Assembly (NCBI GenBank): GCA_021806295.1
Contig: JAJZXS010000012.1
Location: 1 to 61,268 of the forward strand
DNA length: 61,268 nt
Reading direction: 5' to 3'
Source of the DNA: Thermoplasmata archaeon
Lineage (GTDB): Archaea > Thermoplasmatota > Thermoplasmata > Thermoplasmatales > Thermoplasmataceae
The notes beneath the pieces are model-generated. The model did no database searches. It saw only the letters and a program-made list of their open reading frames with translations, and had not been told where the DNA came from. Shown piece after piece: positions 32,732 to 38,713 of this stretch. Position numbers and translations under genes: made by a program. Numbering within the stretch: position 1 is the stretch's first letter; each line of letters starts with the position of its first letter.

Positions 32732-32791
32732 GTGTAATTTTTTGTAATGTAAAATCATAACAATATAAAATAGAATGTTTAAAGAGATACA

Positions 32792-32920
32792 TTACCTCTT
32801 TTTATATAATGGTATTTTGTAAACTTCTGGGACAATAATAGGTACATCTGCCGCATTTATCTTATTCATATCGATATTAGAATCAATAAAGGAGAATATA
32901 CAATGGTTATGGATGGTTTA
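32792..32920 (-). pseudogene. Orphan C-terminal gene fragment at the island's left edge
   Basis: Reading leftward there is an open stretch of about 40 codons with natural-looking protein sequence (SNIDMNKINAADVPIIVPEV, then YKIPLYKKR and stop at 32792-32794) but no start codon at a sensible place and stops just upstream. It looks like the tail of a gene cut off by the IS3-like element. I cannot name the family. It could also be chance. Confidence 0.25.
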
Positions 32921-32988: not shown

Positions 32989-33256
32989 ATGCCTGGAAGA
33001 ATATGGACCGGCAACGTGGAGTACGGCATTATTATGGAATCATTTAATAATCCTAATATTACAATAGCAGAGATATGCAGGAACCATGGAATAGCAGCAT
33101 CAATGTTATATAAATGGAAGGAGCATTTCCCGTGGATGGAAGAAAGGGCCTGGAAGGAAAGGACCCTGATAAAGCATTAATAAGGGAGAATGAGAATCTG
33201 AAGGCAATAATAGGTGAAATGACCATAGCAAATGAGATTTTAAAAAAAATTACATG
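32989..33256 (+). pseudogene. IS3-type OrfA, frameshifted
   Basis: Residues 1-47 read in the first frame (MPGRIWTGNVEYG, IAEICRNHGIAASMLYKWKE), giving a helix-turn-helix of the Tnp_1/IS911 OrfA type. After TTTCCCG near 33128 the coding frame shifts: the new frame carries the leucine-zipper-like part (ALIRENENLKAIIGEMTI, ANEILKKIT) typical of OrfA C-termini. In the original frame translation ends at 33180. AAGGAGG lies just before the start, in a strong ribosome-binding position. The ATA-rich run at about 32938-32975 provides TATA-like sequence. Confidence 0.65.
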
Positions 33257-33267
33257 AGGAGGAAAAG

Positions 33268-33748
33268 GTGAGTTCAGTGGATGAAATGTATAATAATGGA
33301 ATAAAAATAAACAATGCATGTTATTATTCTGGAGTTAATAGGGTAACATACTATTACAGGAAGAAGCATGAAATCATTGAGGGCAGGAGGTACATAACAA
33401 GGATTGACAGCAGCATAGTGGATAAAATAATAGAGTTATGCAGTGTAAACACCGGAGGAGAATGGTGACATATAAAGTTTTCATAATTCAATTAAGACAG
33501 GTTATATCTGGATCAATGAAATCAATAATTTCAATGAAGGCAAGGAAATAATAGAGAATGCATTCTACGATTATAACAATATAAGGCCACATTCCACATT
33601 GGATTACTACTCACCATTGCAGTTCTTAGACAAATGGAACAATGACAGCAGCTTCAGGGAAAAATACAGGGCATTCTTAAAGAATTTAAAGGATGGCTAC
33701 AGAAGGAAACACAATTATTATAAGAGGTCGATGATAAATGTCTCATGA
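33268..33748 (+). pseudogene. IS3-type OrfB, internal deletion
   Basis: The start (GTG 33268) and N-terminal domain (NACYYSGVNRVTYYYRKKHE, IDSSIVDKIIELC) resemble the helical N-terminus of IS3 OrfB. The frame stops at 33468. After a junction near 33469-33490 a different frame carries the family C-terminus (FYDYNNIRPHSTLDYYSP) through to TGA 33746-33748. The roughly 150 residues with the first two catalytic acids are absent, so this is a deletion derivative. Confidence 0.6.
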
Positions 33749-33769
33749 AATAGAAACATTTTTGTTTAA
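33737..33769 (+). repeat. 33-bp repeat, copy 1 (right end of IS3-like element)
   Basis: AATGTCTCATGAAAT-A-GAAACATTTTTGTTTAA matches 37805-37837 at 32 of 33 positions; flanks beyond both copies differ. It overlaps the OrfB stop and therefore looks like the right terminus of the element. Confidence 0.75.
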
Positions 33770-33850
33770 GAATCACTATCCAACATCAAAATCGAGTCGA
33801 AGAGTGGTTATTCTTACTAACGGCCTCAAGGGTCAAGTTGCATAACAGCC

Positions 33851-33941: not shown

Positions 33942-35567
33942 CTATAAAAGGAATAATAATATTATAACAAATGATAATAATAAAGGTATTAATCTTGTAT
34001 AAATAAAACTATTTTTACTTTTAACAAAATTGTTTTTAAATAGATTATTAATATCATTATTATTAATAGAATTTATATATTTATCATCGAATACTTCAAA
34101 TGAATGACTGTCTTGATCATATTTCTCAATAACCACACCGTATATTTGGTATGGTTTTACCGATGGGTCTGCAATTTTATTATTATCACCTTTTGTGATT
34201 ATCTTACCATTCTTAAACCCAATTATTCTATGACACACAAACCTTGCTTTAGGTATAGCATTGTAAATAAACGATGGTTCATATAATATAATGTCCCCAA
34301 TTTTATAATCATAATAGTTTTTTATCGGTTTAACAATTAGGTAATCATTTGAATTTATTTCAGGATACATACTTCTACCAAGTGCATTATATATAGTTAA
34401 ATTATTATATTTAAGATACTTATATAACTGTTTTTGTTTGAAATTTTCAATATAAAATGATCTAAGGTTATTCATTATGATAATAATAGGATAAAGTAAA
34501 GAGATTAATAACAAAATGCCCAGATATAATATTTCCATATTTCTTATACCTGAATTCTGTGCAATTAGTACAAATAATACTATTCCATTAGCCAATGAAG
34601 AGAACACCAATTCGTCAAATTGAAAAATTTTTTTATATATAGCATTATAAAAAAATGCAATGTATATTATTATAGTAACTATATCAAATAAATAAGTAAA
34701 ATGATACCAGATTAGACTATGTTTTTCCAATAAACTCGATTCTATAGTAAATGCAACCAAAAATGCATAGATGGATAATATAAAACCACTTATTATTAAC
34801 TTTAATGAATAAAATTTTTCATTAAAATAATTAAGTTTTCTATCTTTATCAAACAATGAATTCAACAGGGTATAAAAGATTAGAAAAGAAGTGCCAGATG
34901 CTATTGAAGTGCCAAGCATCTCCAGTAAAAGTTGTGGTAATATTATATTTATATTACCCATCTCTATTAGATGGACTAAAATTGGAGTGGTTATAAGACT
35001 ATCACTAATGATAATACCAATAGTTGGAATTAGAAATAAAAAAGAACCTATATACATCTCTGTGAGGAATATCATATTTCTTATTATTATGAGTGAGGGA
35101 ATATTCTTTAAATGAACGTTTATAGATAAATTTTTATTAGTTTTTAATATTTCATTTAGTAGATGTGGATAGTGAAATATTATTAAGCTAAATAAAGAAT
35201 ATATAATAAAAAACAATAGGAAGATGAAAACTCCGAATAAAAATGTGTTATCTGCGTCTGATTTGTTTAATTCATCACGTTCTTTCTCTTTAAAGAGGGT
35301 AATCATTCTCGCTACAAAAGTTAAATCTACTATAGACCCTAATAAGAGCTGTGTTTTATTGCCTGAAGATTTTTTAAAACATAAGAAACTATTTATCATT
35401 ATCAGTAAACCAAGAAATATGACTCCCGTTACAGAATATCTTACTATTCCATTTAAATAAACTAATGGAAAAATAGATAAATACTCTAAAATTATAATAA
35501 CCATAAAAAATATAGAAAAATACTTAGTTAAAAACAATATGATTTTATATGATTTATGATGAAACAT
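33942..35567 (-). CDS. SpoIIM/DUF95-like membrane domain fused to S26 signal peptidase
   Basis: The 541-residue polytopic protein has two N-terminal helices (about 8-60), then a SpoIIM/DUF95-like block (about 108-235) with IIRNMIFLTEMYIGSFLFLI and the P-x4-E element LPQLLLEMLGTSIASG. More helices follow (about 255-365). The soluble S26 type I signal-peptidase domain has S399 in GRSMYP, IGDIILYEP, H446 in CHRIIGF, and D461/D467 in TKGDNNKIADPS, and a last helix anchors the C-terminus (525-541). All catalytic residues are present. It is downstream of the hydrophobic peptide gene on the same strand, 54 bp away, without its own clear TATA box, so probably one operon. SpoIIM/DUF95 proteins are hallmark partners of bacterial circular bacteriocins. 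A role in leader removal, cyclisation/export or immunity is inference. Confidence 0.8.
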   Translation of the reverse strand: MFHHKSYKIILFLTKYFSIFFMVIIILEYLSIFPLVYLNGIVRYSVTGVIFLGLLIMINSFLCFKKSSGNKTQLLLGSIVDLTFVARMITLFKEKERDELNKSDADNTFLFGVFIFLLFFIIYSLFSLIIFHYPHLLNEILKTNKNLSINVHLKNIPSLIIIRNMIFLTEMYIGSFLFLIPTIGIIISDSLITTPILVHLIEMGNINIILPQLLLEMLGTSIASGTSFLIFYTLLNSLFDKDRKLNYFNEKFYSLKLIISGFILSIYAFLVAFTIESSLLEKHSLIWYHFTYLFDIVTIIIYIAFFYNAIYKKIFQFDELVFSSLANGIVLFVLIAQNSGIRNMEILYLGILLLISLLYPIIIIMNNLRSFYIENFKQKQLYKYLKYNNLTIYNALGRSMYPEINSNDYLIVKPIKNYYDYKIGDIILYEPSFIYNAIPKARFVCHRIIGFKNGKIITKGDNNKIADPSVKPYQIYGVVIEKYDQDSHSFEVFDDKYINSINNNDINNLFKNNFVKSKNSFIYTRLIPLLLSFVIILLFLL

Positions 35568-35621: not shown

Positions 35622-35975
35622 TCATAACGAAGCTACGATCACCCCAGCAAGAATAACTAATCCCCACGGACCCAACCAAGCGAGTATAGTTTCATCTGCT
35701 ATAGTTTCCGCAGCCATTTTACCCAAAACATCCCCCACCGTTATGCGACTTAATATCGCAGCTGCTAGACCAGAGTTCCCAAATAATGCTGTCAATCCAA
35801 GAGCTGTAGATTGAAAACTTATTAGTCCTTTAGAGTATGCTATTATAATGGTACCACTATTAAGACTAACCCCAAAATTGGTAGTCACAAACAATAACAA
35901 AAAACCAGCCACGGACAAAGTTAATATAAAATATATCAACTTTTTGTCTATATTAATTTTCCTTTCAACATACAT
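35622..35975 (-). CDS. Hydrophobic peptide precursor, circular-bacteriocin-like
   Basis: From the ATG at 35975 this is 117 residues. The basic start (MYVERKINIDKK) is followed by one membrane helix (12-32). The remainder is hydrophobic and rich in Gly/Ala/Ser, with helices at about 43-60, 63-78, 80-95 and 97-117 and the tail AWLGPWGLVILAGVIVASL. A leader followed by a helical core of about 57-80 residues, with no cysteines, resembles circular bacteriocin precursors (gassericin/AS-48-like). The TATA box at 35991-36008 is centred about 26 bp before 35975, favouring that start over the ATG at 35990. It is followed by the SpoIIM-S26 fusion. Alternatives are a holin-like or substrate-pilin-like membrane peptide. 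No sequence family is certain. Confidence 0.6.
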   Translation of the reverse strand: MYVERKINIDKKLIYFILTLSVAGFLLLFVTTNFGVSLNSGTIIIAYSKGLISFQSTALGLTALFGNSGLAAAILSRITVGDVLGKMAAETIADETILAWLGPWGLVILAGVIVASL

Positions 35976-35990
35976 AATACTATATAACAT

Positions 35991-36008
35991 TTATATATAT
36001 ATATAAAT
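35991..36008 (-). promoter_or_regulatory. TATA box of the peptide/fusion operon
   Basis: An uninterrupted TTTATATATATATAAAT-type run, reading leftward, lies about 26 bp before the ATG at 35975. It predicts a leaderless transcript covering the peptide and, downstream, the fusion gene. Confidence 0.5.
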
Positions 36009-36526: not shown

Positions 36527-37790
36527 ATGTATCATATTTTGTGTAAATATAAACCCCCTGTTAATAATGAATTGATCATTAAATAACAGGGAGAAATACC
36601 TCTTCTGAACTCAAGGAGGCAATAAAATATGGACTATGACAATATAAACATATCAAATGTAGAGGATATAATAGAAAAGACAGTTAAAGAGAAGCTGGAA
36701 GCACTTACTTATGAAAATAGAGCATGACCAGTATTTAGAGGAGAATCCGGGAATAAAGAATGGGTATTATAAAAGAAACTTAAAGACCAAACACGGTGAA
36801 TTAAAGGAATTATCAGTTCCCAGGAACAGGGATAATACATTCCACAGTGCTATAATAGAATCAAATAAGGCAGCAGGCATTGAGGAGCTGATAACATCAC
36901 TGTACTCAAATGGAGTATCCACAAGGAGAATATCTGCCATATCAAAGGATATATTCAATAACAGGTATTCCCCATCATCAATATCCAGGATAACAGATTT
37001 AGCATTGGAGGAGGTAAACAGATTTATCAACAGGAAGCTTGACAAAAGATACATAGCTGTAATGTTAGATGGACTGTTCTTCTACCTTAGGAGGGAAACT
37101 GTTGGCAGGGATCCTGTAATATTTGCATTAGGAATAAAGGAATCAGGAGAGTATGAGATATTAGGATTTTATCTTACAATTAAGGAATCACATAATAACT
37201 ACAAGGACGTTTTAGAGGATCTGTACAGAAGGGGATTGAAGGAATCATTGTTATTCATAGTAGATGGAATTACAGATTTAGATGAGGAGGTAATGAAGAT
37301 ATACCCAGGTAGTGGCTCCCAGCTGTGCACTACTCCAGGGGATTGAAATCAAGGGTAAAGGAAAGGGATATGGAAATAATAGAGGATGCAAATAAAATGT
37401 TTAAATGCAGCAATAAGCAGGAGGCTATAATAAGATTCAATGAACTTAAGGATAAGTGGAATGGCAGGTATCCAAATGTAATATACAATACTAAGAGAAA
37501 GCTAGGGCAGTTATTAAGATTCTATGATTATCCCTCTAAAATAAGGAATTCACTTAAATCTACAAATGAGATAGAGAGATTGAATAGGGAAATAAGAAGA
37601 AGAATAAAAGTAATATCATCATTCCCTGATGAGGACTCTGCAATGAAGATGTTCTATTTTAAATCCATAGAGTTCGATTCCAGGCATGCATTCAGGAAGA
37701 TGAACGGATACTTTAATTAAATGCCAGGATGAGGTAAAGGAAATGTTCAACAAGAGGTACCCTTTATAAATACACATAATATGGTACACG
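36527..37790 (+). mobile_element. IS256-family-like insertion sequence, decayed
   Basis: Terminal inverted repeats are visible. The left end (about 36528-36553, TGTATCATATTTTGTGTAAA onward) and the right end (about 37764-37789) are reverse complements with a few mismatches. The same end occurs alone at 59369-59405 as GTGTACCATATTATGTGTAA onward. The transposase between them has two frameshifts. The element is about 1.26 kb. It interrupts an older transposase fragment on its left and abuts the second copy of the 33-bp repeat on its right. A target-site duplication is not clear. Confidence 0.72.
36629..37720 (+). pseudogene. IS256-family transposase with two frameshifts
   Basis: Three pieces make one protein. 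The N-terminus (MDYDNINISNVEDIIEKTV, stop at about 36727) lies behind AAGGAGG. The middle, from about 36711, has SLYSNGVSTRRISAISKDIF, then VMLDGLFFYLRRE with the first catalytic Asp and FIVDGITDLDEE with the second, ending at 37346. The C-terminal piece, from about 37325, has STNEIERLNREIRRRIKVI with the catalytic Glu in this well-known IS256 signature. Frameshifts lie at about 36715 and about 37320. The product is inactive unless frames are recoded. Confidence 0.82.
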
Positions 37791-37804
37791 ATCGTTCGAT
37801 GCAC

Positions 37805-37837
37805 AATGTCTCATGAAATGGAAACATTTTTGTTTAA
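37805..37837 (+). repeat. 33-bp repeat, copy 2
   Basis: This matches 33737-33769 at 32 of 33 positions. It lies between the right end of the IS256-like element and the point where homology to the SpoIIM-S26 fusion begins, so it is the right end of a second, otherwise deleted, IS3-like copy. Confidence 0.75.
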
Positions 37838-37849
37838 TAATATATATAA

Positions 37850-38713
37850 CATCAGACAATTTATGCATCAAAAAAATATTCAAAATACATTATTGCAGGG
37901 GTTTTTATTTCGCTCATGAGCTTTCTTTTTGCATGGGCCATAGAAGTTTTATTGATTACAAGAAATATCACACTGATATGGCTCAAGCTCTTCTACTTTA
38001 TTGGTTTATATATGCTTGTTGTTGATTTAATAATTGTTTTTAAATTGATCAAAGACCGTTTTATGTCTCCACTGGAGTATTTCAGTCTTTATTTTTATAT
38101 TTCATTGTTTCTATTTGGTGTAGTAACCACGAAAACAATATATTCTTCATTATGGTATCTTATATCATTTGGCACAATTTCCACCTATTTTCTATTATAT
38201 TCATTAGCTAACTTATTTAACATTAATAATAAAATAGGTAAAATAGACAATAACTTCTTCTATGTAATAGCGAGGGGCAAAAGCATGAAGCCAACTATAA
38301 TGCCAGGGGATATGCTTGCTATCAGGAGGGTTAATAGCATAAATGAATTGAGTGTCGGTGATATTATAACATACAGAGCATCTTCCATATATTCCCCTTT
38401 AAATAACTCAGGGATGGTAACGCATAGGATATATGAAATTAGAAGGGATAAAATATTCACCAAAGGAGATAATAATGCATCTATTGACCCTCAAACAATA
38501 TATTTAGATAATATTGTGGGCCTTGTAGTAGCAAAATTAACATACATAACAAATAAGGTAAAAACACTGGAAATTATAAAAAAGGATGAAATAATTGAAA
38601 AGGAATTGCCAGATATTAAAAATTTAAACCCGGTTATTAAGCATCATAATTTACTTCATGAATTTTCTCTGATACTAATATCATTCGTAATAATTATCAT
38701 AGTGTTAGCTTAA
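37850..38713 (+). pseudogene. 5'-truncated paralog of the SpoIIM-S26 fusion
   Basis: The frame is open from 37850 with no start until ATG 37916, which would give 265 residues. Upstream codons (YASKKYSKYIIAGVFISL) and what follows align with the other protein from about residue 250: KYSKYIIAGVFISL against FYSLKLIISGFILS, and a shared LIW after a matching helix. The S26 domain is intact: S in ARGKSMKPTIMPGD, VGDIITYR, H in VTHRIYEI, D in TKGDNNASIDPQ, and a C-terminal anchor helix. The first 245 or so residues, including the SpoIIM-like block, are missing at the mobile-element border. The remaining signal peptidase could still be made from 37916. Confidence 0.72.

Follow-up and report, generated by a model that had tools for sequence, protein, structure and literature searches.

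A SpoIIM-signal peptidase fusion paired with a putative leader-core peptide gene in acidophilic archaea: a candidate peptide maturation cassette

The DNA analyzed here, referred to as the window, is a 61,268-nucleotide contig (JAJZXS010000012.1, assembly GCA_021806295.1) of a Thermoplasmata archaeon. Two neighboring genes on its reverse strand form the subject of this report (Table 1): one encodes a protein in which a SpoIIM (DUF95)-like membrane domain precedes an S26 signal peptidase domain, and the other, which ends 54 bp before it, encodes a small hydrophobic peptide. An earlier, sequence-only reading of the locus had proposed that these two domains are joined in one polypeptide and knew of no account of such a pairing. 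The fusion is confirmed by the profile comparisons described below, and no description of the pairing was found in the literature searched, the coverage of which was incomplete.

Table 1. Coordinates of the cassette, of its relics in the window, and loci of full-length fusions
Feature	Position	Strand	Basis
SpoIIM-S26 fusion CDS, 541 aa	33942..35567	(-)	ORF call, homologues, purifying selection
SpoIIM (DUF95)-like domain, residues ~155-284	34716..35105	(-)	hhalign vs SpoIIM alignment, negative controls
SpoIIM motif LPQLLLE, residues 210-216, P211 and E216 invariant	34920..34940	(-)	alignments
S26 signal peptidase domain, residues 385-487, S399/H446/D461/D467	34107..34415	(-)	TIGR02228, invariant residues
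C-terminal hydrophobic segment, residues 519-541, predicted membrane anchor	33945..34013	(-)	hydropathy, low-confidence AlphaFold helix 518-540
Precursor peptide CDS, 122 aa, alternative start Met6 at 35975	35622..35990	(-)	ORF call, homologues
Proposed leader, residues 1-47, hydrophobic segment then NSGT	35850..35990	(-)	alignment
Proposed core, residues 48-122, IIIAYSKG...AGVIVASL, 75 aa	35625..35849	(-)	constant core length
TATA-like sequence TTTATATATATATATAA immediately upstream of peptide CDS	35991..36007	(-)	sequence
Relic of second fusion, SpoIIM-motif region (model positions 197-239)	32769..32897	(+)	profile match E=3.6e-5, translation
Relic of same second fusion, C-terminal part with S26, ORF 37916-38713	37868..38713	(+)	TIGR02228 E=1e-16
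Insertion-sequence remnant (HTH_Tnp_1 at 32989-33180), one flank of cassette	32989..33748	(+)	Pfam
Mutator-family (IS256-like) transposase in two frames, other flank of cassette	36711..37720	(+)	Pfam
Full-length fusion loci: window; G001 (two); G009, G026, G035, G039, G219, G277, G320, G376; contig JAJZAR010000169.1 (L075)			

Standard searches were silent on the N-terminal half of the fusion: its 375 residues matched no Pfam or NCBIfam family, a PF01944 search of the host genome did not recover the fusion locus, and a PDB sequence search returned no match. Since searches with one sequence have little power on polytopic proteins, a profile was built from 12 N-terminal halves and compared by hhalign with a SpoIIM profile of 11 accepted proteins, comprising nine from archaea, the SpoIIM of enterocin AS-48, and that of a Listeria relative. 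The two profiles aligned over residues ~155-284 with a probability of 96 and an E value of 4.3e-9. Every control stayed above an E value of 0.4: the profile in reverse, 20 profiles with shuffled columns, an alignment of MFS proteins, and one of mixed membrane proteins. The homology to SpoIIM anticipated for residues 100-240 is thereby upheld at the profile-profile level, with no Pfam match, and the exact bounds are not. Residues N164, G174, L210, P211, E216, and E276 are invariant in the fusions, as are N68, G81, L117, P118, E123, and E171 in the SpoIIM set; P211-x4-E216, already picked out as a P-x4-E element, proved to be equivalent to P118/E123. Among the SpoIIM subgroups tested, archaeal RDD-SpoIIM was nearest to the fusions (E=1.8e-6), and the subgroup of two with the SpoIIM of AS-48 aligned with the fusions in register but weakly, at an E value of 0.15, which by itself is not significant. 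Altogether, the profile homology and the shared N, G, LP-x4-E, and later E support assignment of the N-terminal domain to SpoIIM (PF01944).

The C-terminal half (166 residues) matched the archaeal signal peptidase I model TIGR02228 with an E value of 1.4e-14 and 54.3 bits, above the model's cut-off of 51.85 bits, and the full-length ORF scored slightly under that cut-off (E=1e-13); a domain search of the two halves, as had been proposed, is thus positive for S26. All four residues that the sequence-only reading had found in place, S399, H446, D461, and D467, are invariant in 11 of 11 aligned fusion relatives. With the profile match and the catalytic Ser, His, and Asp, the domain is a predicted peptidase of the archaeal signal peptidase type. 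Both halves of the fusion are under purifying selection, with dN/dS values of 0.22-0.29 for the N-terminal half and 0.30-0.58 for the S26 half, and the gene is a real, selected fusion. An AlphaFold model of the fusion, based on eight sequences, was weak overall (pLDDT 56), its S26 region being better, and the best Foldseek match of the model was SpsB, with a probability of 1.00 but an E value of 0.42; the model supports the S26 fold alone and is too weak to show how the parts are arranged. The host genome also carries a separate signal peptidase gene (G000:C13), which scores better than the fusion.

Full-length fusions were found at no fewer than 12 loci, every one of them in the order of acidophilic archaea to which the window belongs; among the fusion matches, the records that carry names are Ferroplasmaceae archaeon UBA567 and bins of Thermoplasmata. 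When the N-terminal profile was run over 390 genomes of the phylum, the fusion was again confined to this order. Matches to the fusion at E≤1e-12 were obtained in 15 of 400 class genomes, some of them through the S26 part alone, and occurrence is patchy: the window's genus, to which G001 and the closed genome G009 belong, has genomes with two, one, or none. For the contigs of relatives, a single-sequence scan with the fusion gave nothing and an alignment-based scan succeeded. No fusion relatives were found in the viral contigs and plasmids searched, nor relatives of the 122-residue peptide in the viral contigs searched, so the cassette is not evidently viral or plasmid-borne.

The window also holds the remains of a second fusion, which belongs to another subgroup and resembles that of G219. 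Its surviving middle part and C-terminal end are separated by a 5-kb stretch that contains the transposase remnants and, on the opposite strand, the intact cassette. The cassette therefore moves and decays, as accessory genes would. ORF 37916-38713 was considered as an independent signal peptidase and rejected, being the C-terminal remnant of this second fusion. A 46-bp direct repeat, 89% identical (33728-33773 and 37796-37841), brackets the cassette at the ends of the two transposase remnants and is possibly a trace of cassette insertion. Decayed fusions were also seen at L018:7191-8210 (G004) and L059:5824-6252 (G254), where the S26 part is still an open frame and the peptide and N-terminal part have been lost.

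The sequence-only reading had tied the fusion to the upstream peptide and proposed a survey of archaeal genomes for the same fusion beside small hydrophobic peptides. An intact homologue of the peptide lies directly upstream at 8 of the 12 full-length fusions (window, G001 twice, G009, G039, G219, G277, and L075), and peptide-to-fusion spacing at these loci ranges from -46 to 54 bp. A truncated peptide remnant (L077:5619-5810) precedes the intact fusion of G026, the fusion of G376 begins at a contig edge, and no peptide gene was detected near the fusions of G035 and G320; in G254, a partial peptide copy remains at a contig end. A peptide profile searched over the 400 class genomes gave eight significant matches, all beside a fusion or a fusion fragment, and the next-best match had an E value of 0.0025. 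The tie to the peptide therefore holds as a recurring gene order, although the orphans G035 and G320 indicate that the coupling is not absolute. Altogether, there is good support for the fusion as such, for the identity of its two domains as SpoIIM and S26, and for its tie to a single peptide family.

As judged from alignments, the 122-residue peptide family is organized as a precursor of leader and core. Core length is 75 residues at the measured loci, or 76 in the case of L075, the part before the junction varies in length, and small residues occupy the leader/core junction of the homologues. Between the window and G001, dN is 0.43 for the leader and 0.13 for the core, and the core is strongly hydrophobic, with GRAVY values of 1.0-1.4. 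When modeled by itself with AlphaFold, the peptide gave a poor result (pLDDT 53). The leader-core layout bears on the possibility that the small protein is no substrate of the fusion but serves it as a membrane subunit or regulator, the fusion itself acting in membrane quality control or as a signal peptidase. Such a role would accommodate the orphan fusions, kept under selection without a peptide, and the C-terminal S26 parts that remain ORFs after the rest was lost (the window relic, G004, and G254), but a fast-evolving leader with a conserved core of fixed length suits a precursor, not a subunit. As a separate signal peptidase with a better score is encoded in the genome and the fusion is so patchily distributed among the class genomes, we consider this role quite improbable.

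SpoIIM proteins are present in all circular-bacteriocin clusters and define the class (PMC13289728). They are presumed to act in circularization (PMC6131525) and are tied to immunity as well (PMC5695211), and when one such protein was lost, the mature circular peptide stayed inside the cell (PMC6131525). Leader removal and ring closure of circular bacteriocins are stated to be unknown and the absence of a cluster peptidase has been called enigmatic, with host signal peptidases suggested for the leaders (PMC6131525, PMC8659200). In both the archaeal cassette and the enterocin AS-48 cluster of plasmid pPD1 (L078), a SpoIIM membrane protein comes after a small hydrophobic peptide of the leader-core type. 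Only the AS-48 cluster, however, has a separate As-48B, SpoIIM (As-48C), an ATP-binding transporter, and further genes, with no peptidase, whereas the archaeal cassette consists of two genes in an archaeal host, with SpoIIM fused to S26 and a peptide of unrelated sequence.

Searches of the peptide against Pfam (PF09221 included), NCBIfam, and AS-48 returned no match to a known circular bacteriocin, and the cassette flanks, unlike bacterial clusters, show no conserved gene for an ATP-binding transporter or for immunity. Of the features that mark a circular-bacteriocin cluster, SpoIIM beside a leader-core peptide is thus present (8/12), and a known peptide family and an ATP-binding transporter are absent. 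Since the peptide matches no known family and the transporter ATPase is missing, we do not file the cassette as a member of the circular-bacteriocin clusters; it is in layout, we reason, that it matches such a system.

The S26 half can be compared with two types of known enzyme. It has the same domain and catalytic residues as archaeal signal peptidase I (S26, TIGR02228), but unlike the housekeeping signal peptidase, encoded by a separate gene, it sits on a SpoIIM polytopic protein and is tied to one peptide gene. The second is TraF of RP4, which to our knowledge carries no SpoIIM part. TraF and its pilin TrbC resemble the cassette in that a signal peptidase-type enzyme is dedicated to one small hydrophobic peptide, and this signal peptidase homologue is proposed to cyclize TrbC, joining its ends, through its serine (PMC12037004). 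Cyclization of the archaeal peptide by the S26 domain is therefore conceivable.

On balance, we judge it probable, with modest confidence, that the two genes form a cassette in which an archaeal peptide resembling circular bacteriocins is matured, with the fusion serving as a dedicated membrane maturase. The 122-residue gene product would be a precursor with a hydrophobic leader of ~45 residues and a very hydrophobic core of 75 residues. The S26 domain, outside the membrane, would cut after a small residue at the leader/core junction, and the SpoIIM half and the surrounding helices would hold the core or move it through the membrane; they may also help to join its ends head to tail and to protect the producer, roles that have been proposed for the SpoIIM of bacterial circular bacteriocins. 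With S26 removing the leader and SpoIIM and the helices handling the core, the fusion would fit the gap left by the missing leader peptidase of bacterial clusters. The data show both domains, the intact catalytic residues, selection, the adjacency of the peptide, and the constant core; cleavage of this peptide by the fusion, its export and cyclization, antimicrobial action, and protection are inferred from them.

The fusion might also mature the peptide and leave it linear, as a linear archaeocin or a peptide signal, cut by S26 and then released or membrane-held. The sequence offers no proof of cyclization, and neither a match to AS-48 or other circular families nor a cluster ATPase is found, in keeping with a linear product; SpoIIM, however, has been called class-defining for circular bacteriocins (PMC13289728), and a constant 75-residue core with hydrophobic ends suits ring closure, so that we regard a linear product as rather unlikely. 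Very unlikely, in our estimate, is that the fusion serves mainly in immunity, by degrading or expelling a peptide that the housekeeping signal peptidase matures. SpoIIM is linked to immunity besides circularization (PMC5695211), no other immunity gene is present, and orphan fusions could provide immunity without production, but the leader/core junction has the small residues preferred by S26 enzymes, and with an S26 domain already fused in, a second enzyme is not needed for maturation. If the maturation cassette is real, it would bring SpoIIM-dependent peptide maturation to archaea, and a natural SpoIIM-serine peptidase fusion with one peptide gene would be a minimal system for studying cleavage, export, and ring closure.

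A parallel type of cassette occurs in the same archaea. RDD-SpoIIM adjoins an M48 metallopeptidase in L081, L090, L091, and L092 (Pfam M48 E values of 2.6e-21 and 8.9e-22 for two of these loci and 2.4e-5 for a third), and a gene for a hydrophobic peptide of 155-177 residues precedes or diverges from each of the four pairs. A profile of the M48-type peptide found over 20 places in 14 of the 400 class genomes. An M48-like gene follows at most of these places, and the start of an RDD-SpoIIM at several. The main subgroup of these peptides has conserved N-terminal and highly variable C-terminal parts, as is usual where a leader is attached to a product that diversifies. Like the S26 cassette, the M48 cassettes bring together a leader-core hydrophobic peptide, SpoIIM, and a membrane peptidase; they differ in having a metallopeptidase instead of S26, separate genes, and a conserved leader with a hypervariable core, and their peptides are not detectably homologous to the S26 type (E=0.04-0.23, homology not established). 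They look like a second family of putative bacteriocin clusters in archaea, and a larger one, and support the theme of SpoIIM combined with a dedicated membrane peptidase and a peptide. Tentatively, and with more doubt than conviction, we raise the idea that Archaea solved the missing leader-peptidase step twice, by the S26-SpoIIM fusion and by SpoIIM with M48, and that the S26 serine may both cut the leader and join the ends, in which case the S26 cassette would be a two-gene system for cyclic hydrophobic peptides.

M48 cassettes were recorded at L109:3339-5829, L110:1643-4071, L111:1425-3981, and L112:3093-5583, with further loci at L113-L132, and their peptide copies sometimes number two or three per genome (G002, G004, and G254). 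A short stand-alone SpoIIM protein was also observed beside a chloride-channel-like gene, a pair conserved in two genera (L001:1330-3453 and L080:271-2154).
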